From NCBI GenBank assembly GCA_947184155.2, contig CAMXCT020000499.1, positions 12,501-76,500 of the forward strand: DNA of 64,000 nt, given 5' to 3'. Under the pieces are notes generated by a model. That model was not told the origin of the DNA. It saw only the letters and a program-made list of their open reading frames with translations, and searched no databases. The position numbers and the translations under genes were made by a program. The DNA is from Cladocopium goreaui. Its lineage: Eukaryota > Sar > Dinophyceae > Suessiales > Symbiodiniaceae. Of the stretch, positions 40,143 to 59,530 are shown piece after piece (within the stretch, counting starts at the first letter, position 1; the number at the start of each line of letters is the position of its first letter).

Positions 40143-41363
40143 ATGAGTTTTTCAGATAGCGAAGCAGTTTTCTTTCAAAGATGTCGAGAGATTGGGTTCG
40201 AAGACGAGGCCATAGACAACATGAAAAATCAGCAACTGACCACCATGTCACGTTTTGCATTTGCTTGCAATTACTCCCCAGCTGGTACTGACGAAGCACC
40301 TTTGGTTAACTTGGCAAAAGAGGTCTATGGCAAGGACCCTAGCACTGTTGAGATGGCTTTCATCAGAAGAATCTTTAACGAAGCCTACGTGAATGTTGCA
40401 TCAGATATCAAGTCCAAGGCAGAAAGCACAGACGAGACACCGATCAGGAAGCTTGCACCAGCTGAGAGGAGTGAGAGACTCAAACAACAGCAGCAGCGGC
40501 TGAGAGGCATCAACATCTCAGGACCTTTGGAACCTGGCGACAGCCTCATTGACAAATGCATATCCATTTATGAGAGTGACCGCATTCAATACGTTTCTTG
40601 GGAATCAGCAGTGAGTCGAGAACATGAATTACTCACAGGACTGAAAAGAGACACCCAGCTCACTTTTGATGGTTCTGGCACTTTGAAATTGCAGAAGGCC
40701 AATCAGGTTGAGCCATGCAACACCAGCAGCGAGATTCAGGTGAAATACGCCTTGACTAGGCGAGCTCTCGCCTTTGAGCAGGCGAACCTGGTGAAGTTCT
40801 CCCTCATGGAGGCGTGGTCAGAAAAGATGATGCAATGTCGCCTAGAAGAACCCAGCAGCGGATTTGCCCGCACCACCATGAAACAACTGGAACAGGCTGA
40901 CCGGAAGCTTTTTGTAGTCTTGGGTGAACACACCCGCGAGGGGATCAAAGCCAACACTGCAGGACGTCCAATTGACTTCATTTTTGAAAAATGCATGCAG
41001 TCATCGGAAGTCATGGCCCTTTTGCAGCCTCGACCCATAGCAGCCAACAAACCTGATCGAGAAGCTCCCAAACCGGTCGGAGAGAGTCCAGTCAAAAGGC
41101 AGCGTTTTGAGAAAGGTGGCAAAGGAACCTTCAAAGGTAAAGGCAAGTCAAAGGGATCCAACAATGCCCGCATTCCTCATGAGTTGCTTGCTCTTGGTGA
41201 TGTTGCAGCTTCAACCCCAAAAGGGATGCGTTTGTGTTTTGGGTACAACTTGAAGCGTTGCCCTCATGTTGTTGACAAGCAGAAGTGTGAAAGAGGCCTC
41301 CATTGTTGCTGCATCAAAGGGTGCTTCAAGTCCCACCCGGCCTTGGATCACGGGAAGGAATGA
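40143..41363 (+). CDS. gag: E1 Gag-like protein with CCCH zinc finger
   Basis: 406 codons. The start ATG at 40143 (MSFSDSEAVF) was chosen because the E3 and E4 Gags begin at the same aligned point. Shared family blocks are FAFACNYSPAGTDE, PIRKLAPAERSERLKQQQ, GPLEPGDSLID, a YALTRRALAFEQANLVKF helix, and RPIDFIFEKCMQSSEVMALL. A Lys/Gly-rich basic stretch follows (KGGKGTFKGKGKSKGS). The C-terminus holds a C-x7-C-x8-C-x4-H finger and a C-x4-C-x3-H cluster, suited to binding the element RNA. The frame ends in UGA (41361-41363), and the MTase domain continues in the same frame. Intact; presumed particle protein. Confidence 0.8.
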   Translation: MSFSDSEAVFFQRCREIGFEDEAIDNMKNQQLTTMSRFAFACNYSPAGTDEAPLVNLAKEVYGKDPSTVEMAFIRRIFNEAYVNVASDIKSKAESTDETPIRKLAPAERSERLKQQQQRLRGINISGPLEPGDSLIDKCISIYESDRIQYVSWESAVSREHELLTGLKRDTQLTFDGSGTLKLQKANQVEPCNTSSEIQVKYALTRRALAFEQANLVKFSLMEAWSEKMMQCRLEEPSSGFARTTMKQLEQADRKLFVVLGEHTREGIKANTAGRPIDFIFEKCMQSSEVMALLQPRPIAANKPDREAPKPVGESPVKRQRFEKGGKGTFKGKGKSKGSNNARIPHELLALGDVAASTPKGMRLCFGYNLKRCPHVVDKQKCERGLHCCCIKGCFKSHPALDHGKE

Positions 41364-41381
41364 CTCCCGCTTGAGCGGGAG
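41361..41381 (+). promoter_or_regulatory. Candidate UGA readthrough site with hairpin (E1)
   Basis: TGA is followed without a gap by CTCCCGC-TTGA-GCGGGAG, a perfect 7-bp stem with a 4-nt loop (41364-41381). The codons beyond are open in the Gag frame for 219 codons and encode the MTase-like domain. A stop followed by C and by a stem is a known context for recoding in retroviruses and RNA viruses. That it acts so here is inferred. Confidence 0.6.
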
Positions 41382-42023
41382 CCCATACACGAGAGTGGCC
41401 ATGATTTTCATGTCCCTCAGAGCCTCGGTGGTGAAGGCACGCCGATCAATTTTCATGAGTTTTTGCCTGCCCCCTCTGAGGGCACCAAACCTTGCATTTT
41501 TCTTGAGCTTTGTGCGGGCAGCGCACGACTGTCGGCAGCGGTACGTAGTACAGGAATTCCTGTTGTACCCATCGACCACAAGCACAACAGGCATGCACCA
41601 CGATGCAAAATCTTCCAGCTCGATCTTTCACAACCTCATGCATGGAGTCAGTTGATATTTTTGCTTGATAATTATGATGTTCTAGCGTGCCACATAGCAC
41701 CTCCCTGTGGCACATGCAGTCGTGCGAGAGGAATTCCGATGCCTGATGGAACTCCTGGGCCTCAACCTCTGAGGTCAGAAAGTGAGCCTTTGGGTCTGCA
41801 AGGACTATCCTATGCAGATCAAATGCGTGTTGACGGCGCCAATGCCTTGTACGATGTTTTGGGCAAGCTGGTTGAAGAATTGCACAAAAGGGACATACCC
41901 TGGTCAATCGAAAACCCTACAAACTCGTTGATGTGGAGCTTGAAGTTTTCCTTTTTGCAATCATCCACGGAGAGTGGATCCACTGTCATGCATGCGCTTT
42001 TGGCAGCACGAGGAAAAAGTTGA
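41364..42023 (+). CDS. E1 cytosine-C5-methyltransferase-like domain (start of Pol)
   Basis: In frame with Gag across the UGA. Motif I-like IFLELCAGSARLSAAV (~41500), the VVPIDHK acidic strand, motif IV-like HIAPPCGTCSRAR with the catalytic-type Pro-Pro-Cys at 41700-41708, and motif VI-like SIENPTNSLMW (41904-41936) with the conserved Glu-Asn. A motif VIII-like FGSTRKKLTTFLV follows, but in the RT frame. Motif X and a clear target-recognition domain are not seen, so the domain may be minimal or catalytically altered. It could methylate the element's own DNA or only bind DNA. The frame closes at 42021-42023 and passes to the -1 frame (next feature). Confidence 0.65.
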   Translation, partial: LPLEREPIHESGHDFHVPQSLGGEGTPINFHEFLPAPSEGTKPCIFLELCAGSARLSAAVRSTGIPVVPIDHKHNRHAPRCKIFQLDLSQPHAWSQLIFLLDNYDVLACHIAPPCGTCSRARGIPMPDGTPGPQPLRSESEPLGLQGLSYADQMRVDGANALYDVLGKLVEELHKRDIPWSIENPTNSLMWSLKFSFLQSSTESGSTVMHALLAARGKS

Positions 42024-44521
42024 CAACCTTTTTGGTCAGTGATGCTGCACTTTATGAGCCCTTACAGCGATTCTGCCCGGGAAATCATGAACATGAGGCA
42101 TGGGGTTTTGACCATGCCACTTCAACTTTTAACACTGCCAAAGAAGCCGAGTATCCTGATGGAATGTGCCGCACCTATGCTGACATTGTACAACAGATTG
42201 TGTTGCAGCGTGGTTTGCATGTCCACGACTTCAATGGGAAATCCACAGCCACTGCCCCGCAAGTGCAGAAGCGAGGCAGGAAGGTGCCTCAACTGGTTTC
42301 GGAATTTTTGTGGACTAAAGCGGTCCTAACGCGGAACATCCCGAACGTGGATAACAAGAAATGCCTTACTCAACAACATGGCGATATTCCTAAGGGCTGC
42401 AAACTGCTAAGAACTGAAGCGAACAAGGGGAAGGACGGAGATTTAACCTTATGCGTTTTTGGGTGTTTCAGAACAATGCAACAATTTGTGGACGTCAGCA
42501 GACAGATTTGGCATCCATATGATGAGCTCAAGAACCTGCCTGACTCTCTTGTGAGAACGCTTTTCTGGTATCTCAGCACTGCCCCCTCTGAGATCACAAA
42601 GCGCCGAATCAACTGCTTGACAAGATGGAGAACCACGGAAGCCAAACTCAGATCATTGGAATCCGAACTTCATGGACAAATGAGTGAATCAGTTGCATGT
42701 GTTCTCCGTAGCAAGAATATCCTCTTGATGAGACAAGTTGCGGAGGAAATGAGCTGGCCCGACGTCAACCTTTTTGATGAGATGACACAAGGTTTTGAGC
42801 TCACTGGAAACTTCAGCGCATGTGGCATCTTCAAACCGCAGGTCAACATTCCAACCTTATCGGTGGCCCAATTGAAACAGAACACCAAGTTCCTCAGGCC
42901 CACTATCCTGGGGCGCATGAGGCTGACAGAAGCCAGTGAGCTCCAGACGGAACTCATGGAAGTGACAGAGACGGAAAAATCGAAAGGTTGGCTTGAAGGT
43001 CCTTTTACTACAGATGAGATAACAAACAAATATGGTCACGACTGGCTGCCGGTTAGGCGATTCGGAGTCAAACAAAAGAACAAGACGCGGCCAATTGACG
43101 ATTTCTGTGAAAACACGCTGAATGAGACTTTTGGATCGGTGGAGAAGCCTGAGTTGCGCACCATGGACCATGTGCTCTGGGCCCTGGTTGTTCTTGCACA
43201 ATATCTGACTTTCCATGAACGCATGCAGTTCAAGCTGAGCGATGGCAGCACACTGGACGGGGATGTTCATGGCGAATGGAAAAGGCTGAGACCCATCTTC
43301 AAGACCACGTGCGTTGATTTGCAAAGCGCATACAAACAACTTGCTGTGCATCCAGACGAACATCACCGAACGGTGGTAACCTTGTGGGATAACCAGAAGC
43401 GGAAACCAGTATGCTATACTTCCAAGGTTTTGCCGTTTGGAGCCTCGGCCAGTGTGCACCACTTCCTAAGAGTCAGCTCTTTCTTACAAGCGGCCGGACT
43501 GCACATGGGCCTTTGTTGGGCTGCTTACTTTGACGACTATGCTTTGCTGACGCATGAGTGTCACGAGAAAAGCTCCCTACATGCTGCCTTGGAGTTGTTT
43601 GACGTTTTTGGGTTTCTTTACAGCAAAGACAAGCTTGCAGGTTTTTCAGACTGCACTGAACTGCTTGGGGTGGAGCTCAATTTGCAATCTGTGAATTCTG
43701 GCCACATCAAGGTGCAGAACAAGCAATCGAGAATAGAAGAGACTGTGCAATTTTTGGACAAGATGATAGAAGAACGATACATTGCGGTGGACCAAATGCC
43801 AAGTAAACTTGGTAAGCTGCAGTATGCGGAGGCACAGTTGTGGGGACGTGCGGGGCGGCTTGCCCTTGCAGACATAAGACATGCAGCTTCGCTTGGCAAG
43901 GTGACGGTGGAGCTTGATGTAAGAGCTTGCAAGGCCGTTGAACTTCTGAGGTCAAAACTCCTGTCAGGGCGGCCCAGGACAATCAGTGTTTCTAAGAAGA
44001 AGATGCCAGTCGTCATTTTTACTGACGGTTCTCTGGAATATGACAACGGTAAACGTGTCGCTGGCATTGGTGGAGTCTGCATTCTTCCCTGTGGGCATGT
44101 CGAAATTTTTGGAGCTGAAGTACCACAAGAAATTTTGGATGACTGGACAGAGAATGACGACAAAGATCACGTCATTGGGCTTATTGAGCTGTATGCTGTG
44201 CTGACCGCCTTGCACACCTGGTCGCGGCACATTACGTTAGAAAGGGTTGTGGTCTTTGTTGACAACTGGCCAGCTGTCGACGCTCTTGTGAAAGGGGTAT
44301 CCACCCAACAGACGTGGAGAGACCTTTTGATGACCTTTGAGATTTTGGATGAGAAGCAGCAATCGCTGCATTGGTTTGCCAGAGTTCCTTCATCGAGCAA
44401 TCCTGCTGATCCACCCAGCAGAGGCACACTTTCAGGCTTGGAGTTCCTCAAACCCTTTGTTTTATGCGAATCCTTCTGTCCCGTTACCAACAAACCTTTG
44501 ATGCAAATTGTGAAAGAATGA
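41933..44521 (+). CDS. pol: E1 Pol: reverse transcriptase and RNase H
   Basis: 862 codons of open frame. It begins with the end of the MTase-like region (TTFLV..., HEAWGFDHATSTFNTAKEAE, GRKVPQLVSEFLW), which E3 has in one frame with its MTase. RT follows: RRFGVKQKNKTRPIDDFCEN (~43050), motif A TTCVDLQSAYKQLAVHP (~43309), the VLPFGASASVHHF region, and active site YFDDY at 43526-43540. RNase H: FTDGSLEYDNG (44018-44050), IELYAVLTALHTW, FVDNWPAVD and the terminal VPSSSNPADPPSRG, a tail typical of DIRS-type RNase H. It copies E1 RNA into DNA. No stop or deletion is seen. A -1 step at AAAAAGT-TGA (42014-42023), or a mutation, separates it from the MTase frame. Confidence 0.88.
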   Translation: MELEVFLFAIIHGEWIHCHACAFGSTRKKLTTFLVSDAALYEPLQRFCPGNHEHEAWGFDHATSTFNTAKEAEYPDGMCRTYADIVQQIVLQRGLHVHDFNGKSTATAPQVQKRGRKVPQLVSEFLWTKAVLTRNIPNVDNKKCLTQQHGDIPKGCKLLRTEANKGKDGDLTLCVFGCFRTMQQFVDVSRQIWHPYDELKNLPDSLVRTLFWYLSTAPSEITKRRINCLTRWRTTEAKLRSLESELHGQMSESVACVLRSKNILLMRQVAEEMSWPDVNLFDEMTQGFELTGNFSACGIFKPQVNIPTLSVAQLKQNTKFLRPTILGRMRLTEASELQTELMEVTETEKSKGWLEGPFTTDEITNKYGHDWLPVRRFGVKQKNKTRPIDDFCENTLNETFGSVEKPELRTMDHVLWALVVLAQYLTFHERMQFKLSDGSTLDGDVHGEWKRLRPIFKTTCVDLQSAYKQLAVHPDEHHRTVVTLWDNQKRKPVCYTSKVLPFGASASVHHFLRVSSFLQAAGLHMGLCWAAYFDDYALLTHECHEKSSLHAALELFDVFGFLYSKDKLAGFSDCTELLGVELNLQSVNSGHIKVQNKQSRIEETVQFLDKMIEERYIAVDQMPSKLGKLQYAEAQLWGRAGRLALADIRHAASLGKVTVELDVRACKAVELLRSKLLSGRPRTISVSKKKMPVVIFTDGSLEYDNGKRVAGIGGVCILPCGHVEIFGAEVPQEILDDWTENDDKDHVIGLIELYAVLTALHTWSRHITLERVVVFVDNWPAVDALVKGVSTQQTWRDLLMTFEILDEKQQSLHWFARVPSSSNPADPPSRGTLSGLEFLKPFVLCESFCPVTNKPLMQIVKE

Positions 44522-44534
44522 GCTGAAGCAGAAT

Positions 44535-44952
44535 GGGGTGATGGATGTCAAATGCAGACATAAGAATGGCAAGTGCAACCAAAAATGGTCAAGCAACCAA
44601 CCTCACAAAATGTGAGGTGAACATATCCATCGAATCCCCATCTTCTGCGACGAAAGAAAAAGACAGATGTGCTATCAAACATTCAGTTCATTCTCATGCA
44701 GTGATGTCAATGTTTTCATGTCATGTGAGTTGCATGTTTGTTTTTGTATGTTTGGTTTATGTTTTGCGACGGCGTGCGAACGACGTATGACGTATGCGAC
44801 AAATATATATGTTTGATTATATATGTGACTTTAAGTATAGATATGCCTTATGCCTTGAACAATGTATACTGCTGTACCCACGGCTTATACACTACCACAA
44901 CCTTACATGTTGCGTAAGCTGAAACCTGTTTGAAAGATCCTTCTGACTATAA
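44535..44952 (+). repeat. E1 split direct repeat B1
   Basis: 418 bp, from GGGGTGATGGATGTCAAATG to TTCTGACTATAA. Differs from B2 by one base (C/T near 44693). Continues without a gap into A2. Confidence 0.95.
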
Positions 44953-45515
44953 GTTTTGCGTTAGCTTGCTAATGCTGGTTTATAGTAAGAAGGAAAGCGA
45001 AGGCATGAGCGGCTTTCTAACTCAATGTACAACTTCGCCCTCACGCGTAAATATGCCTTACGTAAGTTTATGTTTTGTGCTCAATTTACACTTCCGTTTG
45101 TGGACTGTCAGGTTCGCAATGTTGCCTTTTTGTAAACAAGTGTTTACCAACAAACATATGAGCAAAGCAGATACTGAACTGACGAATGGTTTTATTTGAA
45201 GCATTTCAAAAAAAAATGAAATGACAAACCTCACGAAACGATGCAGTTGGATGTCAACGTGACACAATGCTTCCAGTGTAGTATCTGTTCTTATCAGAAA
45301 ATGCGACATGATGTCAAACCTTCACAAGTGAGGCTATGATTCAAGTGCAGTATCTGTCAATCATCTTAACTAAACAAACGTGAAACTGTGGATGTCACAC
45401 ACGTCACTACATGCATGCATGTTCATGTATCATTACATGTTTGGTGTTTTACACCCCAAGTGCGGAGGGTGGGTGGGTGCATGTGCTATGATAGCACCGG
45501 ATTGTTCAGTTTCAC
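44953..45515 (+). repeat. E1 split direct repeat A2
   Basis: 563 bp, the second copy of A1. A 28-bp spacer containing CACCCACCCACCC separates it from B2. Confidence 0.95.
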
Positions 45516-45543
45516 CCACCCACCCTCCTCTGAAACTTCACAA

Positions 45544-45961
45544 GGGGTGATGGATGTCAAATGCAGACATAAGAATGGCAAGTGCAACCAAAAATGGTCA
45601 AGCAACCAACCTCACAAAATGTGAGGTGAACATATCCATCGAATCCCCATCTTCTGCGACGAAAGAAAAAGACAGATGTGCTATCAAACATTCAGTTCAT
45701 TTTCATGCAGTGATGTCAATGTTTTCATGTCATGTGAGTTGCATGTTTGTTTTTGTATGTTTGGTTTATGTTTTGCGACGGCGTGCGAACGACGTATGAC
45801 GTATGCGACAAATATATATGTTTGATTATATATGTGACTTTAAGTATAGATATGCCTTATGCCTTGAACAATGTATACTGCTGTACCCACGGCTTATACA
45901 CTACCACAACCTTACATGTTGCGTAAGCTGAAACCTGTTTGAAAGATCCTTCTGACTATAA
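45544..45961 (+). repeat. E1 split direct repeat B2 (right end)
   Basis: 418 bp copy of B1, ending GACTATAA at the junction with the E2 Gag remnant. Confidence 0.95.
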
Positions 45962-46433
45962 ATCATCAACTGACCTACAGGGAAATCAAATCCAGACGCC
46001 TCCCTGGAGTCTGGTTCTCAGTTACGAGCATGCAGTGAGGAAACGTGCTTACAGCTTGATGGTCAGTGATCACTTGAAGCTAGGGGCTGCACTGGAACAG
46101 GCATGGAAATGCCCCACAACAAAAGAGCGGCATTTTATCACACCATTGGCATTATACAGCAAACGTTCAAACCCTTCGGCATCATGGGGGGACTGGAACC
46201 CAAAGGGTAAAGGCAAGTCCAACAAGGGCTCAAGCGGCAAAGGGAAATCCAAAGGAAAGGGAGCAGGTACAGCCCCCGATGGATCAAAGATTTGCTTCAG
46301 GTTCAACCAGGGGAAATGCAGTTATCAGAAATGCAAATTTGCGCATTTGTGCAACAGGTGTTTCAAAAAGGGACACAATGCGTTGAACTGCAAGGACGAC
46401 AAGGTAGCCTTGGATACAACAGGTTCAGTCTGA
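45962..46433 (+). pseudogene. gag: E2 Gag C-terminal part with CCCH finger and zinc knuckle
   Basis: Open from the E1 junction (the frame enters from E1 B2, so the first codons are chimeric). Contains WSLVLSYEHAVRKRAYSLMV, ERHFITPLALYSKRS, a basic Lys/Gly/Ser linker, then a C-x7-C-x4-C-x3-H finger (CFRFNQGKCSYQKCKFAH) and a CCHC zinc knuckle C-x2-C-x4-H-x4-C. These are typical nucleic-acid-binding ends of Gag. Terminates at UGA 46431-46433, followed by C, with the pol frame continuing in phase. Only the C-terminal part is present. Confidence 0.7.
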
Positions 46434-49400
46434 CCTAAGGTGCAGCAGAACAACAATGGAGGGGGCACTGCGTCTTCAAAGCAAATATGCAGGGTCCTCT
46501 ACATTCTTTCAGGTAGGCCACGGAAGAATTCAGTTTCATCTTGGTTGCGCAAACTGTCAAAACATTTTGGCGTGACTGTGGAGGTGGAGATGGTTGACAT
46601 ACAGATCAAACCCCACCTTGATATCACCAAGGATTCAGTTCAGCAGCAATTGCTAAGCAAGATAGCCGCTGGCAGATATCTTGCAGTGCTCCTGAGCCCT
46701 CCATGCAGTACATTTACCAGGGTGACCTGGGCAAACCGCAGGGGACCGAGACCAGTCCGATCCTTTGTGAAATTCAGGGGATTTGCTAGGCTGTCGTGGT
46801 CGGAACGGAAGAGGGCAAATTGGGGCAACATTTTAACAGATTTTTCATTTGAGGCCTTTGCGAAACAAATGGTTCATGCAGATGCGATGGCACTTTACGA
46901 GAACCCGGAAGACTTGGGCGCCATCAGAGCTGGGGAAAACAGGGGCATACGACCCGGAAGCATGTGGCAGTTTGAAAAATTTTCTGAGCTTTTACTTTTG
47001 GACAACGTTGACACTGCAGCGTTTTACCAAGCTGACTTTGGTACAGACTATTTGAAGCCTACAAGACTTTTGTTGGGGGGTTTTTCAGTCCTGCCGGAGC
47101 AACTGGTGGCGGGACAACCTTGCTTTGATGATCAGGGTTTTTATGTAGGTCCACTTGCAAAGCGCTCTGCAAAGCGACAACTGGTGGGAAACGTTGGGAG
47201 CCATTTTGCAACCACAGGCTCGGAACAATGGCCCTCAAAAATGTGCAAGTGGATAGCAACAGCCATTCTGGAAAAATTTTCTGCCCTTCAAACCTCTGCA
47301 GTCCTCGCTGACGATGGAGATTTGGGAACCATCTCGGACAGACAGGAACAGTATAAAGTGTTACAGCCGGACGGCAAGAAGCTGGCAGGAGGAGTGGGGG
47401 ATCCCCGCAAATGTCAACCTCCCGGCAAGGATAGACGTTTCCATGACGGTGCTGGGCTGCTTTCAATGGGACGTTGGGATGTTGAAAACAGGATTTGGAG
47501 CATGGGAGCGTTTTGGAAGCAGCTGAGGCAGGGCACAATTGCCTTGATTGAGGCACATCTGGTCGACCCAAGAGAGTTGGATAGAGCATGTTTTGAGATG
47601 GCAGTGAAGGGTGAAGAGGGCTGCAACATAGTGCGGGATGAGAAGCTGAAGAATGAGATTAGGAGATACTGGATCTCTTTGCTTATACAACACGGGTCAT
47701 CGCAGACGGACCTGGAACATGTGGCGGATGGCCAACCTTTTTACCTCAGGTTGATGAGGGAGCTTTTGGCCTTTGGGGAGGACGCCGATCGTGACTTCCT
47801 GCTACAGGGGGAGACGGGGTTCCCAGTGGGAGTGCTGAATCCACTCCCACGCACCCCGCATGCTTATGAAGAGCAAACTTCTTGGCGGTTGGAGGATGAG
47901 CCCTTTATGCAGGAGGAAGTGTGGCGTTCAAATTACCAATCAGTCGAAGATCATGTCCAGTTCATCAGGGAGCATTTTGAGGAGGAGTGCAATGAAGGGC
48001 TCATGGAAAGACTCACCATTGAGCAGGCTAAAGAGCGATATGGGGACAGGATTGCAATTTCTTCTCTGGCAGTGCTGGTGGAAGAGAACCATCAGGGAAA
48101 GAAGAGGGTGATACATGATGCCACCCACGGGACGAAGGTGAACAACAGAATCAGGTGCAGGGATAAGACTAGGAGTCCTAGTGCAAGAGAAAAACAATAC
48201 CTTCTGGCCTATTTTCAGAAGAACAGATCCTCGGTGTTCAGCCTGGTGGGTGACATCAGCAAGGCGCACAGGCGCTTTTTGCATGCGCCGGAGGAGCGTG
48301 GCTTATTGGAGTGTCGCATCCTCGAGTCTGACCAGTTCATTTATATCAACAGGGTTGGAACTTTTGGCTTGGCGTGCGCCTCATATTGGTGGGGGCGTAT
48401 TGCAGGGGCTGGAATCAGGCTCACCCATGAACTTTTGGGGCCCACCATGCCGGTGGAACTACTTCTTTTTGCGGATGACTTGGAGGCCCTAGGGGCCAGC
48501 GCTGGTGGGAGACGAGGAATCACTTTGGCCTTTCTTTACATGTCTGTACTTGGTTTTCCTTTTAAGTGGGCGAAGCAGAGAGGTGGTTTGCGTGTGGAGT
48601 GGATAGGCCTTTTTACGGACTACACTGTATACAAGCTGGGCTTATCGCCAAAGAGGGCACAGTGGATGCATGACTGGGTCTTGGAGCTTGCCCAGTCGGG
48701 TGTTACCACCTCAAGAAACTTTGAACAAGGTTTGGGACGCTTGGGTTTTGCATCCCTGGCGTTAACTTGGGAAAGGCCCTTTTTGGGGCCCCTGTACAAC
48801 TGGAGTGCAGCGGTGCGTAACAAAACAGGTGCTTTGCGTTTGCCGGCCATGCTTCGAACCATCCTTAGGTTCCTGGCAAAGCGTTTTGAGTCAGGCGGCG
48901 ACTTGCAAAGCCCTCCTCCACTTGACAGACCTACGAGCAACGGCCTCACCTTCTACACAGATGCAAAAGCAACAGAATCCAGTGCTTGGATTGGTGGTTT
49001 CAAGCAGGACTCAGAAGGGAAGGTGGTTTCTTGGTTTTCAGAAGAGATTTCCCCGGAATGGGCACCATGGCTACATCTGAAGAAGGATCCCAAGAGGATC
49101 ATAGCAGCTCTTGAACTTCTGGCGAGTTTGGTGGCAGTCAAGCTGTGGATGCCTACAACAGAGGGGACAACTGATGCGGTTTGCTGGATAAAAGGAAACA
49201 CGGACAACCAGTCCAACACACATGCCATTTCACGATGGATGAGTACAAAATTTCCTTTGACAGTTTTTATCATGGAGCTGTCAGAGTCTTTGAGATGTGG
49301 CCGTTGCTGTTTGACATTGGACTGGATACCTCGCGAGGCAAACCAGTTGGCAGATGACCTCACGAACGAGAAATTCGACAGCTTCAACCAAGAGGACAGG

Positions 49401-49559
49401 GTCAGGTGGGATCCAAAGTTGCAAAAATGGCACGTGTTGGATGAGTTTATGTTACATGCAAATTCTTTTCATGCAGAGATGTCGAAACGAAAGAGTGAGC
49501 CGCAAGCTCCCCAGCAAAAAAGGAAGAAGAGAAAAACATCTGCTCTTGAACCATGGTAG
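46434..49559 (+). CDS. pol: E2 Pol: MTase-like domain, RT, RNase H
   Basis: 1041 codons after the Gag UGA, in the same frame; no start codon is needed if read through. N-terminal ~200 residues: YILSGRPRKNSVSSWLRKL, then VLLSPPCSTFTR with Pro-Pro-Cys at 46698-46706 and YENPEDLGAI. This is a second, more diverged form of the MTase-like domain. RT: LVEENHQGKKRVIHDATHG, motif A VGDISKAHRRFLHAP (~48246), GTFGLACASYWWGR, and active site LLFADDLEAL (Phe-Ala-Asp-Asp, 48468-48479). RNase H: LTFYTDAKATESSAWIGGF (~48945), the Glu in IAALELLASL, NTDNQSNTHAISRW and the tail WIPREANQLADDLTN. Intact frame, ending in TAG. Confidence 0.85.
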   Translation, partial: PKVQQNNNGGGTASSKQICRVLYILSGRPRKNSVSSWLRKLSKHFGVTVEVEMVDIQIKPHLDITKDSVQQQLLSKIAAGRYLAVLLSPPCSTFTRVTWANRRGPRPVRSFVKFRGFARLSWSERKRANWGNILTDFSFEAFAKQMVHADAMALYENPEDLGAIRAGENRGIRPGSMWQFEKFSELLLLDNVDTAAFYQADFGTDYLKPTRLLLGGFSVLPEQLVAGQPCFDDQGFYVGPLAKRSAKRQLVGNVGSHFATTGSEQWPSKMCKWIATAILEKFSALQTSAVLADDGDLGTISDRQEQYKVLQPDGKKLAGGVGDPRKCQPPGKDRRFHDGAGLLSMGRWDVENRIWSMGAFWKQLRQGTIALIEAHLVDPRELDRACFEMAVKGEEGCNIVRDEKLKNEIRRYWISLLIQHGSSQTDLEHVADGQPFYLRLMRELLAFGEDADRDFLLQGETGFPVGVLNPLPRTPHAYEEQTSWRLEDEPFMQEEVWRSNYQSVEDHVQFIREHFEEECNEGLMERLTIEQAKERYGDRIAISSLAVLVEENHQGKKRVIHDATHGTKVNNRIRCRDKTRSPSAREKQYLLAYFQKNRSSVFSLVGDISKAHRRFLHAPEERGLLECRILESDQFIYINRVGTFGLACASYWWGRIAGAGIRLTHELLGPTMPVELLLFADDLEALGASAGGRRGITLAFLYMSVLGFPFKWAKQRGGLRVEWIGLFTDYTVYKLGLSPKRAQWMHDWVLELAQSGVTTSRNFEQGLGRLGFASLALTWERPFLGPLYNWSAAVRNKTGALRLPAMLRTILRFLAKRFESGGDLQSPPPLDRPTSNGLTFYTDAKATESSAWIGGFKQDSEGKVVSWFSEEISPEWAPWLHLKKDPKRIIAALELLASLVAVKLWMPTTEGTTDAVCWIKGNTDNQSNTHAISRWMSTKFPLTVFIMELSESLRCGRCCLTLDWIPREANQLADDLTNEKFDSFNQEDRVRWDPKLQKWHVLDEFMLHANSFHAEMSKRKSEPQAPQQKRKKRKTSALEPW

Positions 49560-50694: not shown

Positions 50695-50944
50695 CGTTTG
50701 GAAAACCGCTATGATTTTTTTTGGCCAAATGCAAGGCAAAACCCCTCATTCTAAGTGAAGGCACCCGGTTTTTCCATTTATCACCACAGTTAGAATGACG
50801 TCGTTTTTGCACTTTAGGCTCTGACTTTGCGGCATGTGTGGGGAACTCTGCATTTTGGCGACCACAGATAGAATGACGACCAAACAGATGCCGAAACCGT
50901 TACACAGTCCCAATCTGTTAGATTCTTCCAGAAAAGTGTCGTTA
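50695..50944. other. Flank of E2, no gene
   Basis: Contains two similar CACAG-TAGAATGACG blocks (50786 and 50861). Otherwise unique. Confidence 0.45.
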
Positions 50945-51512
50945 CACGAGGTTTTGCAGCTTCCCCTATAGACACTGCGACATCGACGCAGCAAAAGACA
51001 CGAGGTTTTGCAGCTTCCCCTATAGAGACTGCGACATCTACGCAGCAAAAGACACGAGGTTTTGCAGCTTCCCTAAAGACACTGCGACATCTACGCAGCA
51101 AAAAACACGAAGTTTTGCAGCTTCCCCTATAGACACTGCGACATCTACGTAGCAAAAAACACGAGGTTTTGCAGCTTCCCCTATAGACACGGCGACATCC
51201 ACGTAGCAAAAGACGCGAGGTTTTGCAGCTTCCCTTATAGAGACTGCGACATCCACATAGCAAAAGACGCGAGATTTTGCAGCTTCCCCTATAGAGACTG
51301 CGACATCTACGCAGCAAAAGACACGAGGTTTTGCAGCTTCCCTATAGACACTGCGACATCTACGCAGCAAAAAACACGAAGTTTTGCAGCTTCCCCTATA
51401 GACACTGCGACATCTACGTAGCAAAAAACACGAGGTTTTGCAGCTTCCCCTATAGACACTGCGACATCTACGTAGCAAAACGCACGAGGTTTTGCAGCTT
51501 CCCTATAGACAC
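50945..51512 (+). repeat. 54-bp tandem repeat (~10.5 units)
   Basis: Units run CACGAGGTTTTGCAGCTTCC, then CCTATAGACACTGCGACATC, then TACGCAGCAAAAGA. The period is 53-54 bp. Minus-strand Cys/Arg-rich 18-residue repeat frames are artefacts. Confidence 0.95.
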
Positions 51513-51523
51513 CGAATTAACGA

Positions 51524-51590
51524 CGCGAAAAACGACGCGAAAACGACGCGAAAAACGACGCGAAAACGACGCGAAAAACGACGCGCCGAC
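51524..51590 (+). repeat. CGACGCGAAAA minisatellite
   Basis: Five to six units of CGACGCGAAAA(A), alternately 11 and 12 bp. CpG-rich. Confidence 0.95.
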
Positions 51591-51639
51591 CAACTGGCGG
51601 CGAACAAAGGTCCAACCCCCAGACCCCCAACTATAAACG

Positions 51640-52660
51640 GGAACCCTTCGCTACGCATTCGGGAATAAACCTTGACAACTCATGATATATATGAATTCTC
51701 TCATGGAACATGATAGATTTTTACATACTACGAAACGTGAAGAATGTAATGTTTCATTACATGCCTGTGGTGACACTGAACAACATTGGAGATGAGAATG
51801 TCAGATGTAAACTGAACTTTAATAGATCTCAAGGATGGTGGTTTTCTTTCAGTGAACATCTTTTCGAATCTTTTGAGTTTACAGTGATGATGTGTCGAAT
51901 TTTTCATCATGTTGCAATTTTGGATTCAAGCTTCAAGTGAAGCAATGTGGCAAGTGCCACAGAAATGACATGGCAAGTGCCAAGACTCATGTCTTTAATT
52001 CATCTCAACACTTGACATGTCAATCAATTCACGAAAGTAAACATGAACAAATTCGAAATCATCAACATCATGTTCACTTTCAAATTTTTCGTGGAAAACT
52101 GCAGGACAGCTCGCATCAGCACTGAAGAAGCTGCGTTCTGAGAGATGAAGAAAAAGGAGAATAAGAGCCGCGTTTGTTTGATTAGAAACGGTCTGTTAAC
52201 AGGCATTCAGAGAGAGGCAGGTGCTTCAAATTTCTCAAGTGAGAACCATCATGACAAAGTGCTGAGTCTCTGAACAATCAGCATGTCAAAACGGAACATT
52301 CATTCATGTGAAGATGTTCTTTTGGGAAGCAAGTGCTTCCGTTCGGCCATGTGAGTACATGTCCTCTCCTGCTTTGATGGTTCAAACTCAGTGCACGTTT
52401 GAGTGCATATCCTCAAGTGAGGCTTGAATCAATTCATGAAATCTCATAGTGAACCAATCAAAGAAAGTCTCAGGAGTCAACTTCAACAACAGATTCTAAT
52501 GTGACATGCGATTTCGCCCAATATTGACGTATAATCTTTACCACACAATCACCAATTGAAATCCCACTGTCTCATCAAGTCTCCTCATTGGATATGATCA
52601 ATCATAATAACATAAGCAGACGGTTTGACTTAGTCCGTAGACTGTCAACGCTTCTGCGCA
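51640..52660 (+). other. Probable 5' region of E3
   Basis: About 1 kb of AT-rich sequence with no long frame, running up to the E3 Gag ATG. In E1 and E4 a recombinase precedes Gag. Here none is present, so E3 either has another gene order or lost that part. The A1 repeat of E3 cannot be identified because its 3' end lies outside the window. Confidence 0.35.
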
Positions 52661-53868
52661 ATGGGAACTTTGCTGGAATCTCGAGAGGCCTTGAAGGCCA
52701 GAGGACTGGAGGTCAGCCTCACGTCAGATGAGATCGATGCATTGGTTCACAACAGGGTAGATTCCCTTGCCCGTTTAGCATTCGCAGCATGCCAGCCAGG
52801 TGAATCCCCAACAGATGAACAAATTGTAGCCTTATTTGCCGGAAGGGCTGTTCCGAACCAAGGGACCTTTGCATCCATGAGGCGTTTGATCTTTGAAGCA
52901 CAAACGCTACTATCGGCAGATCTCCAAAACAAGGTGCACAAGGCAGACGAGAGCGTCAAGACCAAATTAGCTCCTGCCGAAAGAGACAACAGAATCAAAG
53001 ACCAAAAAGCAAGGTTGGAAGGGCTCAGATTTCGGGGTGAGGAAGAGTGTTCTCATCAAAGCTACGACTTAGTGCTTCATATGCTTGAGAAGGACACCCT
53101 TTTGTATCTTCCACCCGACAAATTTCCCACGAGACGCCATGAGCTTTTGCAAAAGAAAGCACCCAAAGAAATCACGATTGACCAGTCTGCTTTGATTGTT
53201 CGGGACAAACACATGGAGCTCACCTGTTCGACAACCACTGAACTTGAGGCCACCAACGCCCTTCGACGAAGAGCTTTAGCATTCGATTTGGTAAAGGCAT
53301 GTGATTTTCATGTCATGAATGCTTTCCATGCTGACCTGTTCGATCATTTGCATCAGACGCCACCGCCTGGTTATTCATCAGTTTCTTTGGCCCAACTCCT
53401 GCGAGCCGATCGAGCGGCCTGGGTACTCATCGCTGAACGCATCACAACCCTAAAGAGGGATGAACAAGGCAAATTGCCTTTAGAGGCGGAACTCCAGCAG
53501 GTGCTTTCCCATCCATCAGTCACATTCCATTTGTTGCCTCTGCCAGCTGCGGGAACAACCAAGACTGCTTCACCAAAGCCGAAGCCACAGCCTAGACGTT
53601 CCAGATCGCCCAAAAGACCCTCCGGCCCTGCACCATCCAAGGGCAAAGGCAAAGGAAAGAAAGGGGCAAACGGGGACGGGGCCCTAACGTCCCCAAGGGG
53701 CTGATCAACAAAAATTTGCAGACATCATCAGGAGAGCGCCTTTGCTGGGCATTTAATTTGGATCAAGGTTGCCCAAATGCTAAGCCCGGAGAGCGTTGCA
53801 ACCGAGGCATACACCTTTGCGCAGAACCAGGCTGTGAGAAGCCTCACAGCCTCCAGAAGCACCAATGA
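52661..53868 (+). pseudogene. gag: E3 Gag-like protein, one frameshift
   Basis: Starts at ATG 52661 (MGTLLESREALKARG). Shares with the E1 and E4 Gags the blocks LAFAACQPGESPTDE, KTKLAPAERDNRIKDQKARL, ALRRRALAFDLVKACDF and TPPPGYSSVSLAQLLRAD, then a basic Ser/Pro/Lys linker. Its frame ends at a UGA at 53702-53704. The next frame carries the expected continuation NVPKGLINKN and the CCCH finger (C-x8-C-x8-C-x4-H from LCWAFNLDQGC). A one-base indel in the G-rich stretch around 53665-53690 therefore splits the gene. The true Gag terminus is UGA 53866-53868, followed by C, with MTase in phase beyond it. Confidence 0.75.
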
Positions 53869-54064
53869 CAGCCATCAGCGGAAGCTTCAATTTTGCAAGA
53901 ACCAGCTCATCCGAAGCGAGAGCCATCTCTCTTGAAGAAGCCTCCGCTCAATCAACTTTTTGCCATAGAAATCTTCGCAGGAAGCGGCAAACTCACAGCT
54001 TCAATTCGAGCCATGGGATTGCAAGACAGCTTTGGGATAGACTCGAAGCTGCCTCCAACCTTGC
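53869..54064 (+). CDS. pol: E3 Pol, 5' part: MTase motif I, interrupted by E4
   Basis: In frame with Gag after the UGA. A Pro/Lys/Glu-rich linker leads to LFAIEIFAGSGKLTASIRAM (~53953), a clear motif I (Phe-Ala-Gly-Ser-Gly) of C5-methyltransferases and better preserved than in E1. The domain breaks off after DSKLPPTL where E4 is inserted. Reading resumes at 62323: joining 54064 to 62323 gives TLRSPIIKYDL with the frame kept. Confidence 0.75.
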
Positions 54065-54508
54065 AATACTTGAGTTGAAAACTCATGATGTCTTATGACA
54101 GAGGTGTTGTTTTTTTTGAAAGTTCCTTTCTGAACTTTCCTCCAAACCAAAAACTCTCTATTACCTTCTGCTACCCGAGTCAGAATGTATGTCAGTTTTG
54201 GATGTTAAGTTCATCCTGTCAGAGTATATGTCAAGATGCCAGCTAACACGCGTTTCTGTGCTGTTCAAATCGAAGTGATTTGTTTGCACTGTTCAACTCA
54301 TGTTCAACTGTGAAGTACTCAGTTGTTTTTAATAAAAAACGAAACAAATGTACGTTTGAGTCAAGATGCTTTCACAACATGTTACATCAACATGTCTCAC
54401 ATGTTCAATGTATAATGTCATGCGAAGTAACTTTTTATGTCCATGGACATTTTCCAAGTTCAAGTGGTGGGTGCGGTGGGTTAAGAAACCCTTTTCCCAA
54501 ATTTTGTT
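54065..54508 (+). repeat. E4 split direct repeat A1
   Basis: 444 bp, from AATACTTGAGTTGAAAACTC to CCCAAATTTTGTT. Its start is the left junction inside the E3 MTase domain. Confidence 0.95.
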
Positions 54509-55015
54509 GACAGAACCTTTTGCAGTTGGGCCATATTGCTTTCAATTCTCCGTTGTGCCTGGAGAAATCGCCTGCTCCTGTGTGGAGCCATTTTCGGTGC
54601 AGTTTTGTGGATTGATCGCTGGAATCAATTTGGCTTTCTTTTTCCTGTTCATTGGATTCTGTCCCAGTAAATGCCCAGGGTGCGACTGGTGTGTGACTTG
54701 GCGCGATTCACACAAGGTTGCCGCAATTGTGGTGCTCTGATCTCAGATATTTGGCTTTTCTTCAACCTTTCAACAGGTGTTTTCGCATTGTTGGATACCC
54801 ATTCGCAATACAGATTTTTACAGTGCTGTATTGTCTTGTACGTTGACCGTTCTGCAGTCGCCTTGGGGGCAACTGAACTTCGACTGAATTGCCAATTGAT
54901 CAGTTGGGGAGTCCCGACACCACCTGTGCAGGCTGTGACACCACAGCCCGACACCGCCTCGGACGACTTTTCTTTGTCCAGTGCGGATTTTGCAGACAGC
55001 TCAGATGAATCTTAA
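54509..55015 (+). pseudogene. E4 ORF1 counterpart, membrane segment, broken
   Basis: A frame to 54740 includes a hydrophobic segment (CGLIAGINLAFFFLFIGF). The next frame (54671-55015) gives an SDIWLFFNLSTGVFALL stretch and an acidic, Ser-rich end (ASDDFSLSSADFADSSDES). Placement between A1 and the recombinase and overall layout equal E1 ORF1. Sequence identity to E1 is low. Function unknown. Confidence 0.35.
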
Positions 55016-55123
55016 TCTGATGCACGATGTGGGAAAAGGGGAAAAACGAAGGTTTGACACAGCAGTTCATGAACACCTTCAGTTCTGTGAGCGTAGCATG
55101 AAGCGCACTGCATACAAATACCC

Positions 55124-56842
55124 GTGGCAGATGGTTTTCTTGGTGACAACAACAAGGAGTCATTTCCATTTGGCCCAGTTGGCATGTCACCTTTGTGCAG
55201 GGTTCCGGTATTGCAAGATACTGCAGACCTTACAGGACTTGATCGACAGGAGAGCGTTTTTGATGTCCACTGCAGAAAACTGTTTTGCAGACTTCCGAAG
55301 ATTGAGTGGGATGCACTTTTGGATTCTCAGCGCAATGCAGCGTTAGCCAAGTGGCATCGGATAGTCATGTCAGACCCCATGTCCTTTGAGGTTTGCAGAT
55401 TTTATTTCAACTCAGTCAATTCTGGTTTGCACAAGGGCCGGCTACAAGATGATCTCAAGAATATTTTTGCAGGTAAGAGCACTTCGACGCTTCACAGTCG
55501 TGCAGGTCCGCTGATGAGGTTCTTGCACTACTGTTCCAACTCGCAGCTCAAGGCCTTTCCAGTGTCTGAGGAGGTTGTGTACGCCTTCATGCAACATGAG
55601 GAAGAGAAGGCTGCGCCGACATTCCTTAAGAGCTTCTTGAGTTCGTTTGGATTCGCCTGTCATGTGCTTGGGCTTGTTGGTGCAAGAGCTGTCATTGAGT
55701 CCAAACGTGTCAAAGGAATAGCAGACAAATGCTACCTGCTTAAGCGAAAAACAAGGTCGCGTGAACCACTCCGTGTGGATGAACTGGCAACGCTGGAAGA
55801 AATCGTGCTTGGCCGCAAAGGCCGCTCACTTCCTGACAGACATGCGGCAGGATGTTTCCTGTTCATGGTCTTTGCACGTGCCAGATTTTCTGATATGCTG
55901 AACGTGGGCAAGCTCGAATTTGACCTGAGCAGTTCTGACAAAGGCACACGTGGATATGTTGAAGCCGAGGTCACCAGGTCAAAGACTTCCTTTTCGGTGG
56001 ACCGCAAGGTCAGGCTGCTGCCTATGACTGCAACGATGAATGGAGTCTCTGGCGAGTCTTGGGGTGAAGCTTGGAAAAGCGTTGTGGCAGAAGCTGGCAT
56101 TCAGGTTGGACATGGGAAACCTTTGTTGCCGGGCAGGACACCAGATGGGTGGCACCCGCTCCCTTTGACGGCCTAAGCAGCCACCAGTTGGCTACGTAGC
56201 CTGCTTCAGACTGGTGAATTTTTCCAAGACTCCAGATTGCAGTTGCTTGGAACCCATTCATGCAAGTCGACTTGCCTGTCGTGGCTGGCTAAGTGGGGTG
56301 CCACTCCAGACATGCGCAGGTTGATGGGCTACCACGTGGCCGATAAGATGTCTACGATGCTGATCTATGGAAAAGATAACACAAGTGCTGGACTTCGTGA
56401 AATCGATGTCATATTGGATGCCATTAGAGATGGAGAATTTGTCCCAGATTCAAACAGAGCTGGGATGTTTCCTTTCCTTGAGGATCGTACAGAATCGATG
56501 AAGCGTCAGGACGTTCCTGCTTTCGATGGTCACTGCACTGACAGCTCCTCCGAAGACTCCGTGGACGAGGATGAACCCGACCACAATGCCAGGGAGGCCG
56601 CAGAAAACGCTGTGCTTGGCAAGTGGGATGGCCTGGTGGAAGTTGACAAGCTTCCCGAGGGAGCACTTTATTTTCGCCACCCGCTATCTCGAACCATTCA
56701 TTTGCAGGAAGATGAATCTGGTCTCAAGTTTACATGCGGCAGGGACATCACACGCATCTACATTGCACTTCCGTCCAGACCTCAGACACTTCTGCCTGTT
56801 TGCAAGCAGTGTTTCAACAAGTTCAGAAAGAGCCCGTTTTGA
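55124..56842 (+). pseudogene. E4 tyrosine recombinase with one in-frame stop
   Basis: Homologous to the E1 recombinase throughout: KSTSTLHSRAGPLMRFLHY, VFARARFSDMLNVG (catalytic Arg), EVTRSKTSFSVD (Lys), LGTHSCKSTCLSW (His-x-x-Lys), LMGYHVADK (His) and MLIYGKD (nucleophile Tyr). A TAA at 56174-56176 interrupts after PLPLTA; the next codon continues the family sequence in the same frame (AATSWLRSLLQ). All catalytic residues except the Arg and Lys lie beyond it. Otherwise uninterrupted. The N-terminus upstream of 55124 is unclear and may carry another shift. After the stop codon appeared, movement would need recombinase from another element. Confidence 0.8.
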
Positions 56843-57575
56843 AGCACACGGTTCATGGCAATGTAGTGGCTTGAGTTTGAACCAAAAATTCCACAGTGCT
56901 TGGGATGTCCCTGACTTGAAGTTGTGCCGGCCTCAATTGAATCAGTTGCAACCGAAGACTTCATGTGAAACCATTGCATAGTTCAAAGGAACTTATGAAC
57001 TTTAACGTGCGTTTTGAGCAAAAGAATTCGGAATTGGCAGCCTTCCTGGAGGAGTTAGGAACATGAGCTTGTGGTGATCTTAGTGCAAACGGGGTGAGTC
57101 AATTGAATGCAATGTTCACCCGAACCACGAAAAATGTCTCAGATGCCGTTTTGAAAAGTTGCTGCTCATTCACATGTTTTTCATGAATGTTTCACGTGTG
57201 CAAAGTTTTCATGTTTGTTGTGGAGTTTCCTTCAGAATATCGTCGCATCAAAAGGTTTGTCATCAGGAGACGAACATTAAGGTGCAACTGGTCTGGTGGT
57301 AAAGTTGAACAGTTGTTTGGGCATGGCCAATTGAGATCTCTGCAGGAATCACTCGAGTGTGTGATGTGCAGGCTCCAGAAACGAGTCGAGATGTTGGGAC
57401 AAATTCCAGATATATGCTATCAACATGTTTCATGCTTTTATTCGTGTCATGCCCCATTTATCAAACAATTCAAACGTTGCAATGAATTTCACTTGACAAG
57501 TTCAGCAGGTTTCATGTCTTTTATTTCATTTGCTTCCTTTGATTTCAACCAGCGCAAGCGTAAGAGTTCCGTGTG
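56843..57575 (+). other. E4 spacer between recombinase and Gag
   Basis: About 730 bp with no convincing frame, in the position of the 540-bp spacer of E1. Confidence 0.4.
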
Positions 57576-58753
57576 ATGGCGTTTGCAGACAGCAAACCCG
57601 TGTTCAAAGACCGAACGGTTGCAGCTGGCATTTCAGAGGAAATATTTGAAAGACTTTCTGACGCAAAGCTGGATACTCTGTCGAAGTTTGCGTTTGCAAG
57701 CTCTTATGTGCCTGGATCAGGAGACGACACGGAATTTGTGAAGACTTTGAAGTCGGTTTTAGGTCGTGATGCTGACCTTTCTGAGCTTGCATCGTTTCGC
57801 AAGTTGCTGCACGAGGCTTACTCGCTTGTCACCCAAGAAATGAAACAGCAGCTTGAAAGGAGTGAAGAGGTTCACACGAGAAAACTCACTCAACCTGAAC
57901 GTGCAGATTTGTATGAGAGACAGGTGAAACGTATCACAGGCTTGACTTTGAAAGGACCTCTTGAGCCCAGTGATGCGCTCATTGATTCCTTTTGTGCAAT
58001 GTATGAGGCAAAGAGGCTGAGTTGGACAAAGATGTCAAGACTGAGCACCTGTTTGCGATGGACTCCAATGGTAAGTTGAAAGTTGAGGGTAAGAAGCATG
58101 ACCCTATTGCAGACACATCCACGGAAATCATGTTGCAATATGCTTTGCAAAGGCGAGGCCTGAGCATGGACCAAGCCGACTTGTTGGATTTCAAAATTCA
58201 TCAGCTGTGGGTGGATCACCTGATCAAAGCAAGGCTTCAAACGCCACCACACGGATATGGAAAGACGACCTTTCGTCAATTGCTCGAAGCCGACAAGAAG
58301 TTGTTTGAAGAACTTGCTGATGAGACCCGCCATGGGGTCCAAGTTACAACGAGCGGAAGGCCAATCGACTTGGTTTTCGAAAAGTGCATGAATAAGGCAG
58401 AGGTCATGCACTTACTGCAGCCGCTCATGGGAAAGTCCTTTGAGCCGAAAGGAGATGAGAAGACATCTTCGAGTCGTGTTGCACCTTACCAGCAACAGAG
58501 TCCTTCAAAAGGGAAGGGCAAGAGCAAAAGCAAGAACAGAGCTTCGCCAAAAATGCCACATGTCTTGTTGAATGGTGGTTGTCGTGCAACGACAAATTCA
58601 GGAGATTCAATCTGCTATGGATTTAATCTTGGGACATGTTCGAACAAGGTGACAAACGGTCGCTGTGACCGTGGTTTTCACGTGTGTGCACTGCCGAAGT
58701 GTGGTAAGCACCATGCTTTCATCAACTGCCCTTCCAAGAACCAATCAGGTTGA
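57576..58753 (+). pseudogene. gag: E4 Gag-like protein, one frameshift
   Basis: Starts at ATG 57576 (MAFADSKPVFKDR). Family blocks: KFAFASSYVPGSGDDTEF, HTRKLTQPERADLYERQ, LKGPLEPSDALID. A one-base shift near 58020 moves the frame to ELDKDVKTEHLFAMDSNG and on through YALQRRGLSMDQADLLDF, RPIDLVFEKCMNKAEVMHLL, a basic linker, and the C-x7-C-x8-C-x4-H finger (CYGFNLGTC...). Closest relative in the window is the E1 Gag. Ends at UGA 58751-58753, followed by CTA, with the MTase continuing in frame. Confidence 0.8.
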
Positions 58754-58776
58754 CTATTCCCCGAAGGCGGGAGTAC
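58751..58776 (+). promoter_or_regulatory. Candidate UGA readthrough site with hairpin (E4)
   Basis: TGA-CTA, the nucleotide context known as most leaky in eukaryotes and alphaviruses. It is followed by a possible 7-bp stem: TATTCCC (58755-58761) pairs with GGGAGTA (58769-58775), one G-T pair, 7-nt loop. Same position as the E1 hairpin, although the sequences differ. Confidence 0.55.
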
Positions 58777-59530
58777 GGAGCCTGGTGAACTGCAAAGTGC
58801 AGCATCACCGCGAGTTGGGAATCACGAAGGTGATGTTGACGCATTCAAACCCGAAGTGGAGCTGAATGCAAAGCCTCCCAGGTACCTGGCCGAGGCGCCA
58901 CTTTTTGTTGAAGTTTGCTGTGGTAGTGCACTGCTCAGTGTGTGTGTTTCGAAGGCAGGCTGTGATTCTTTTCCGATCGACTTTCTTGGAGACAAGCATC
59001 GGCTTTGTGCATGTTGTTAGCTTAGACTTGCGAAAGAAATCAACTGGGATTTTCTGGAACATTTAGTTTGACACAAAGACCTTTTCTATTTCCATGCTGC
59101 GCCTCCTTGCGGCACGGCTCGAGGGCGAGAGATTACCAACTCCCGGATGGGAATTGCGGACCACTTCCACTCGGGTCCGAAGAATTTCCCATAAGTTTCA
59201 TGGATCACGAGAGTTCTTAGAGGCGATTTGGATTCAGCAAGGACATTGGATGGAGCATTGAGACGACCACGAGCACCTCCCATGGCCGCATACTAATGAA
59301 GATGGCAAAGTCGTCTTTGACACTAGTAAAGAAGCGGCCTATCCAAAGCTGTTTTGCGAAAGGTGTGCAATTGTTCAGGCGGATGGTGCTGGTTTTCTGA
59401 CATTCACCTGAATCAGGAACTTTTTCTCCAATACGAGAAATGTGGATGCAAGAGTGGCGACCAACAAGCCGCCGCGGGATCGCAAACTGCCACCGCTTTT
59501 GTCTGAATTTTTATACAGATGAGCGAACCT
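58754..59530 (+). pseudogene. E4 MTase-like domain, decayed
   Basis: In frame with Gag through the UGA, leading to LFVEVCCGSALLSVCVSKAG (motif I-like, ~58902) and FPIDF, then a stop at 59019. Later pieces in other frames: SLDLRKKSTG (~59017), HAAPPCGTARGRE with Pro-Pro-Cys at 59102-59110, PWPHTNEDGKVVFDTSKEAA (~59278) and RKLPPLLSEFLY (~59483). Their order is that of the E1 and E3 proteins. At least three shifts or stops make it non-functional. Confidence 0.7.

Follow-up and report, generated by a model that had tools for sequence, protein, structure and literature searches.

Gag and Pol share one frame across a UGA

How is Pol made in a retrotransposon whose Gag gene ends in a stop codon, when the enzymatic domains follow in the same frame? 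This question is raised by a 64,000-nucleotide stretch of Cladocopium goreaui DNA (the window; contig CAMXCT020000499.1), which contains four retroelement copies, here called E1 to E4. In each of them a Gag-like frame, which encodes a zinc finger at its C-terminal end, is closed by UGA and is followed by a Pol that begins with a methyltransferase (MTase)-like domain. We take the four for tyrosine recombinase (YR) retrotransposons, E1 and E4 being, by their repeats, of the split-direct-repeat type. Programmed readthrough of the Gag UGA, which would produce Gag-Pol in these YR retrotransposons, is probably the answer. The four junctions are as follows.

41361..41363, forward strand: UGA ending Gag of E1, next codon CTC
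46431..46433, forward strand: UGA ending Gag of E2, next codon CCT
53866..53868, forward strand: UGA ending Gag of E3, next codon CAG
58751..58753, forward strand: UGA ending Gag of E4, next codon CTA

The first-pass annotation had placed the four UGAs at these positions with C as the next base, and a re-reading of all four copies gave the same. The Gag frame stays free of stops up to MTase motif I over 45 codons in E1, 19 in E2, 31 in E3 and 50 in E4, so its statement that no second stop lies before the MTase domain was also confirmed. Its wording that Gag and Pol are joined in all four copies is right from Gag to the MTase start and has to be restricted beyond that point, where E1 and E4 are broken.

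In none of the four copies does an in-frame AUG precede motif I. The first AUG is codon 126 in E1, 53 in E2, 49 in E3 and 132 in E4, and in E1 it is downstream of the PPC motif as well. Initiation at AUG would therefore give a Pol lacking motif I, and in E1 lacking PPC too. In E2 the third codon past the UGA is GTG. The codon before the UGA is GAA in E1 and CAA in E3; adenosines upstream of the stop are known readthrough helpers, and UGAC is a known leaky context, with UGA-CUA being a known viral readthrough motif (PMC3542737). E1 offers an internal contrast, since its Gag ends in GAA-UGA-C and its Pol in GAA-UGA-G.

The chance expectation was estimated by Markov resampling of the four linkers (145 codons together, own dinucleotides kept, 20,000 trials). 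All four linkers were stop-free in 1.7% of the resamplings and without in-frame ATG in 9%, and both together occurred in 0.14%. Four in-phase joins have a chance probability of (1/3)^4, and that of all four stops being UGA is 0.066. Within 36000-63900, C follows TGA at 135 of 590 sites, which gives 0.0027 for UGA-C in four out of four.

The Gag end is conserved in protein relatives

Relatives were compared as proteins, and phase and stop were deduced from the protein records. The two queries were the E1 and E2 fusion frames, in which the UGA was given as W; the best 120 of 132 and the best 120 of 209 matches were considered, and 300 proteins were fetched. The named relatives come from Durusdinium, Cladocopium and Symbiodinium. 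Searches of viral contigs with the E1 MTase and with the E1-type and E2-type alignments, and of genome contigs with the two alignments, found no relative. A Gag end was counted as the same when the last 15 profile columns were reached with at most 15 residues beyond.

Among the Gag proteins without an MTase match, 71 of 76 share the same end (49 of 54 E1-type and 22 of 22 E2-type), as scored with Gag profiles built from many of the very proteins then tested. The five remaining E1-type Gags resemble gene models or frame-shifted copies. This conservation speaks against a recent nonsense mutation.

Both Gag and MTase are matched by 18 of the 300 proteins, 10 of which are gene models and 8 open reading frame (ORF) calls. 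All 10 gene models skip the Gag end, at differing places. Such skipping is what an intron spanning the UGA would produce, with the spliced mRNA encoding Gag-Pol. The skipped stretches, however, vary and mostly remove the zinc finger wholly or partly, and they therefore fit a gene predictor dodging a stop. More than 90% of Symbiodinium DNMT genes are also reported to be intronless (PMC5890265), and we consider an intron at this place very improbable.

Of the 8 ORF-called fusions, 7 cross the junction in phase, and in six of these seven a Trp or Arg occupies the stop position or lies close to it. Trp is found in P0082 at precisely the position of the stop in its closest relatives, and in P0120, P0121 and P0243 at the Gag end or close to it; the near-identical pair P0099 and P0116 shows Arg there. 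Trp is the reading of UGA under table 4, or of UGG, and a single base change leads from UGA to an Arg codon, which is not so for UAA or UAG. The residues following the junction Trp or Arg are N (P0082), L, L, P, Q and Q. The seventh, P0148, is in phase with a junction residue that could not be placed. The eighth ORF call, P0147, goes from Gag to MTase through two frame changes.

Predicted hairpins follow the UGA in E1 and E4

In two copies a compact stem is predicted from the sequence directly downstream of the stop.

41364..41381, forward strand: E1, perfect 7-base-pair hairpin CUCCCGC-UUGA-GCGGGAG, starting at the base after the UGA
58755..58775, forward strand: E4, 7-base-pair hairpin UAUUCCC-7nt-GGGAGUA, starting one base after the UGA

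The E1 stem carries a UUGA loop, and the E4 stem contains one G-U pair. By a criterion that was set after E1 had been seen, comparable stems beginning at a position or at the one after it are found for 167 of 27950 positions (0.6%). Such a stem lies directly downstream of 4 of 590 TGA and of 2 of 135 TGAC, the latter two being 41361 and 58751, both Gag stops. In folding energy over 24 nucleotides, E1 ranks 2 and E4 ranks 14 of 587. When 50 nucleotides are folded from 8 nucleotides downstream, E4 ranks 8 and E1 ranks 93 of 587. Over 120 nucleotides, the folding z-scores of all four junctions are only -1.4 to -1.9. A stem so close to the stop (+4/+5) would be unusual among known readthrough structures, and the ribosome would need to open it at the stop.

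A UGA with an adjacent hairpin resembles UGA redefinition elements. This likeness favors a decoding of UGA by dedicated machinery, either selenocysteine insertion or a reassignment in the host, and the syndinean Amoebophrya is reported to have reassigned stops (PMC6394959). In contrast, Gag proteins end at the UGA position in the great majority of relatives (71 of 76), and the Pol of E1 itself terminates in UGA, which bears out the remark of the first-pass annotation that UGA also ends other frames here. An Rfam scan of 36000-64000 (E up to 1) and a tRNA scan were empty; for a selenocysteine insertion sequence (SECIS) the lack of an Rfam match is weak evidence against. Dedicated decoding is thus given very little probability.

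Comparison with known systems

The arrangement resembles that of gammaretroviruses, in which the Gag stop is UAG, and of alphaviruses, with UGA-CGG or UGA-CUA at the replicase stop: a leaky stop is likewise followed by an in-phase enzymatic second frame (PMC3542737). The likeness to alphaviruses extends to the C after the UGA in E1-E4 and to UGA-CUA in E4 (PMC3542737). Of the type II viral signal, UGA-CUA or UGA-CGG plus a 3' structure from about +8, the CUA or CGG is present only in E4, with CUC in E1, CCU in E2 and CAG in E3. In contrast to these viruses, the present case concerns a YR retrotransposon in a dinoflagellate host, with a +4/+5 hairpin predicted in two copies in place of a structure from about +8. 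Tca2 of Candida albicans likewise has a UGA between gag and pol, but is a long terminal repeat (LTR) element with an LTR promoter, unlike E1-E4 (PMC2194720).

Among elements closer in type, SymbioDIRS-Dnmt3 of Symbiodinium is also DIRS-like, with A-coding-B-A-B repeats and a cytosine MTase inside Pol (PMC5890265), whereas the MTase domains described here are undetected by Pfam DNA_methylase. The words 'gag' and 'readthrough' are absent from the main text of that paper. DIRS1, Ngaro and VIPER/TATE likewise have gag-like, pol and YR genes with A1-B1-A2-B2 repeats (PMC6681497, PMC3783388); unlike in these, the YR-like gene of E1 and E4 precedes Gag. The main texts of the YR-element papers searched, these two included, also lack the word 'readthrough'. 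The first-pass annotation knew of no earlier description for dinoflagellate YR elements, and searches of the open-access literature on YR elements, dinoflagellates and Symbiodiniaceae likewise gave none among the papers listed.

Observations that weigh against readthrough

A number of observations count against programmed readthrough. A stem like those of E1 and E4 was looked for in E2 and E3 and was not found, and the hairpin criterion, as said, was chosen with E1 in view. Known readthrough structures begin about 8 nucleotides downstream of the stop (PMC3542737), compared with +4/+5 here, and the UGA junction of Tca2 gave no readthrough in a yeast reporter (PMC2194720). The linkers are also open in other frames, in frame +1 for E1 and E2 and in frame +2 for E3. 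Codon-usage scoring put frame 0 on top only in E4 and frame +2 in E1, E2 and E3, so that the Gag frame is not singled out by these scores across the four linkers.

Open alternative frames in three linkers would fit coincidence or decay, in which the UGA would have arisen by nonsense mutation within an earlier Gag-Pol fusion or the two frames would have been joined by accident, and the damage seen in all four copies points the same way. Against it stand the Gag end kept in relatives and the in-phase UGA-C common to four copies from two distant lineages, and we attach hardly any probability to it. The first-pass annotation had called coincidence unlikely on the ground that E2 is a distant lineage. 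E1, E3 and E4 are recognisably related, and E2 is indeed far from them, with a weak likeness of about 42 bits and 23-26% identity. This likeness nevertheless means that the UGA was perhaps inherited from a common ancestor, and a shared ancestor of E2 and the E1-type elements is possible.

The protein relatives supply further adverse points. The fused queries themselves carried W at the junction, and the W found there may be encoded by UGG, a table-4 translation of those records being a guess. P0082 has N after the stop position, so A follows and the +4 base is not always C; the earlier claim of an invariable C holds for E1-E4, and judging from the relatives a C after the stop is usual, not universal. 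An off-frame Gag was sought in 91 of 206 MTase proteins without a Gag match, namely the ones with 30 or more residues on the N side, and P0004, P0184 and P0230, the only ones among the 91, join an off-frame Gag to the MTase. The Gag end of P0230 permits UAA as well as UGA, each then followed by C. In P0184, no stop was obtained at the position given by the off-frame fit. The off-frame ORF of P0004 matches Gag at 35 of 36 places, and the sole stop possible there is a UGA with C or T behind it. These three and P0147 are probably damaged copies. ORF records are in phase in 7 of 11 cases (6 of 10 with P0099 and P0116 as one), which is modestly above 1/3.

Initiation inside the linker

The strongest rival, for the E1-type relatives, is internal initiation. 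Pol would then be made separately, by reinitiation, internal entry, a non-AUG start or maybe from its own trans-spliced mRNA, and the shared phase would be a leftover or chance. The GTG near the start of the E2 linker and the three out-of-phase records would suit such a Pol. So would the E1-type linkers, whose Met content also counts against readthrough: Met is no rarer than normal in them (28 linkers, 29 of 1370 residues), an internal Met precedes motif I in 16 of 40 full-length relatives, and a linker Met of the MHDDTT-like type is conserved in one subclade. Of the other full-length relatives, 12 have no internal Met before motif I, and in the last 12 motif I was unrecognised (10 carry the domain start and 2 begin inside the domain).

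Other evidence is unfavorable to a separate Pol. The window copies have no in-frame AUG before motif I (0 of 4), the ORF-called fusions in the Gag frame are in phase in 7 of 8, and the MHDDTT subclade is alike upstream of the Met too (SEGE-like), as expected if that stretch is translated. The E2-type linkers are Met-poor. Their Pol set (n=50, at least 800 residues) left out gene models and Gag-matching proteins; 31 start within the domain and 4 at motif I, and the upstream starts comprise 14 that lack an internal Met and 1 that has one, where some of the 31 are perhaps broken copies and every start depends on the gene caller. In the linkers of the 15 upstream-starting Pols, Met makes up 1 of 392 residues, versus 2.2% in the rest of the same proteins. 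On balance, a separately made Pol is unlikely as a general account; the E1-type relatives may use internal initiation.

Two observations on the relatives may be added. P0071, P0072, P0099, P0112, P0116 and P0134 have a conserved SEGE-like or GEP stretch before an MH[DV][DA]T Met, which may mark either a selected linker or a region of internal initiation. In many E2-type records Pol is called from an internal Met (cf. 46590; P0181, P0186, P0193), and motif I of the MTase domain is thus probably lacking from the E2-type database annotations.

Anatomy and condition of the four elements

The features of the four elements are listed below in the order of the copies.

36944..37510, forward strand: E1 repeat A1, 99.6% to A2 (self-BLAST)
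37641..39602, forward strand: E1 tyrosine-recombinase-like ORF, ending in UAA; motif-like residues, relative P0132
40047..41360, forward strand: E1 Gag, 438 residues, C-terminal zinc finger, 99.8% identity to P0061
41364..41948, forward strand: E1 linker and MTase-like domain in the Gag frame, first AUG at codon 126
41933..44521, forward strand: remaining E1 Pol (RT, RNase H) in another frame, ending GAA-UGA-G; RVT_1 match
44535..44952, forward strand: E1 repeat B1, 99.8% to B2 (self-BLAST)
44950..45515, forward strand: E1 repeat A2, copy of A1 (self-BLAST)
45544..45961, forward strand: E1 repeat B2, copy of B1 (self-BLAST)
45963..46430, forward strand: 3' part of E2 Gag, 5' part missing; 88% to P0235 (248-403) and P0236 (276-431)
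46434..49559, forward strand: E2 Pol, open, ending in UAG (49557); first AUG at codon 53, behind motif I
52661..53865, forward strand: E3 Gag, frame break at about 53626-53704
53869..54064, forward strand: E3 Pol upstream of the E4 insertion
62323..64000, forward strand: E3 Pol downstream of the E4 insertion, open to the window end (558 codons)
54063..54508, forward strand: E4 repeat A1, 99.8% to A2 (self-BLAST)
55433..56770, forward strand: E4 recombinase-like region
57576..58750, forward strand: E4 Gag, frame break near 58010-58025
58754..59134, forward strand: E4 linker and MTase-like start, in-frame stops behind motif I
61057..61437, forward strand: E4 repeat B1, 99.5% to B2 (self-BLAST)
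61436..61882, forward strand: E4 repeat A2, copy of A1 (self-BLAST)
61942..62322, forward strand: E4 repeat B2, copy of B1 (self-BLAST)

E1 and E4 have the split direct repeats A1-ORFs-B1-A2-B2, with copies 99.5-99.8% identical; these were not seen for E2 and E3, both of which are incomplete in the window. An A1-B1-A2-B2 plan is reported for YR retrotransposons (PMC6681497, PMC3783388). The gene order in E1 is the recombinase-like ORF, then Gag, then MTase, reverse transcriptase (RT) and RNase H. In the recombinase-like ORF of E1, RLRYSD, THSCK, LGYH and YSRD were taken by us as tyrosine-recombinase motifs, and the relative P0132 carries the name 'Tyr recombinase domain-containing'.

Pfam gave neither a tyrosine recombinase nor an MTase (DNA_methylase) match in the element proteins. 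The RT of E1 matched RVT_1 with E 2.5e-6 and 27.8 bits, just under the curated cut-off of 29.6, and the E1-type profile matches solved RT/RNase H structures including Ty3. RVT_1 had no match in E2, P0183 and P0200. For the E2-type MTase, Foldseek returned nothing significant, and VIA-align over the Foldseek list gave significant matches. The MTase-like domain has the C5-cytosine methyltransferase fold.

All four copies are damaged, and a long open Pol is retained behind the UGA only in E2 and E3. The Pol of E1 changes frame near 41945, ahead of the RT. A programmed frameshift was considered for this break and rejected; because the close relatives P0108 and P0152 read on in one frame, we take it for damage or an assembly error. 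The MTase domain of E4 carries further in-frame stops. E4 is inserted within the MTase domain of E3, whose Pol is thereby split. At the left edge of E4 (54064/62323), one of five placements rejoins the E3 flanks in one open frame, and this empty site matches the relative P0147 (TLRSPIIKYDL versus TLRNPIIKYDL). By its repeats (99.5-99.8%) E4 (54063-62322) is young, yet its Gag and Pol have frame breaks and stops; it may have been mobilised by the proteins of another copy, or the breaks may be assembly errors.

The last repeat of E1 directly adjoins the truncated Gag of E2 (45961-45963), and tblastn found no match to the missing 5' part of that Gag upstream of E1 within the window. Satellite-like tandem-repeat blocks lie at 2103-3280, 16777-18562, 26770-29520 and 36083-36946, and some of them are related to each other in inverted orientation, among the matches listed.

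A model for Gag-Pol production and its meaning

Programmed readthrough is the most economical reading because the UGAs are in phase, the Gag ends are conserved, 7 of 11 ORF records keep the phase, P0004 points to UGA, an AUG start would cost E2 its motif I, and the E2-type linkers are Met-poor. The first-pass annotation had suggested this mechanism. Its proposal is supported by the in-phase UGA and by the relatives; readthrough by the ribosome itself is what we infer, as are the inserted amino acid, the ratio of the products and the role of the hairpin.

In this model, the Gag gene would end in a leaky UGA-C stop. Most ribosomes would terminate at the UGA and leave Gag in excess, and a minority would decode it by a near-cognate tRNA, giving small amounts of a Gag-MTase-RT-RNase H fusion. 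The compact hairpins that adjoin the UGA on its 3' side in E1 and E4 probably raise the leakiness; for E2 and E3, a context beginning with C, or some other element, would have to serve as the signal. A bolder proposal, which we regard as doubtful, is that Gag-UGA-Pol readthrough is ancestral in a large dinoflagellate MTase-YR radiation, part of which (E1, E4) evolved a +4/+5 hairpin stimulator in the decoding path.

Control of the Gag-to-Pol ratio in YR retrotransposons is little described in the papers searched. If the model is true, a dinoflagellate element group with many records would be set up for UGA readthrough, and the MTase would be made solely as a Gag fusion. It would explain why gene models of these genes leave out the end of Gag or begin within the MTase domain, and the elements would be natural reporters for studying dinoflagellate termination.

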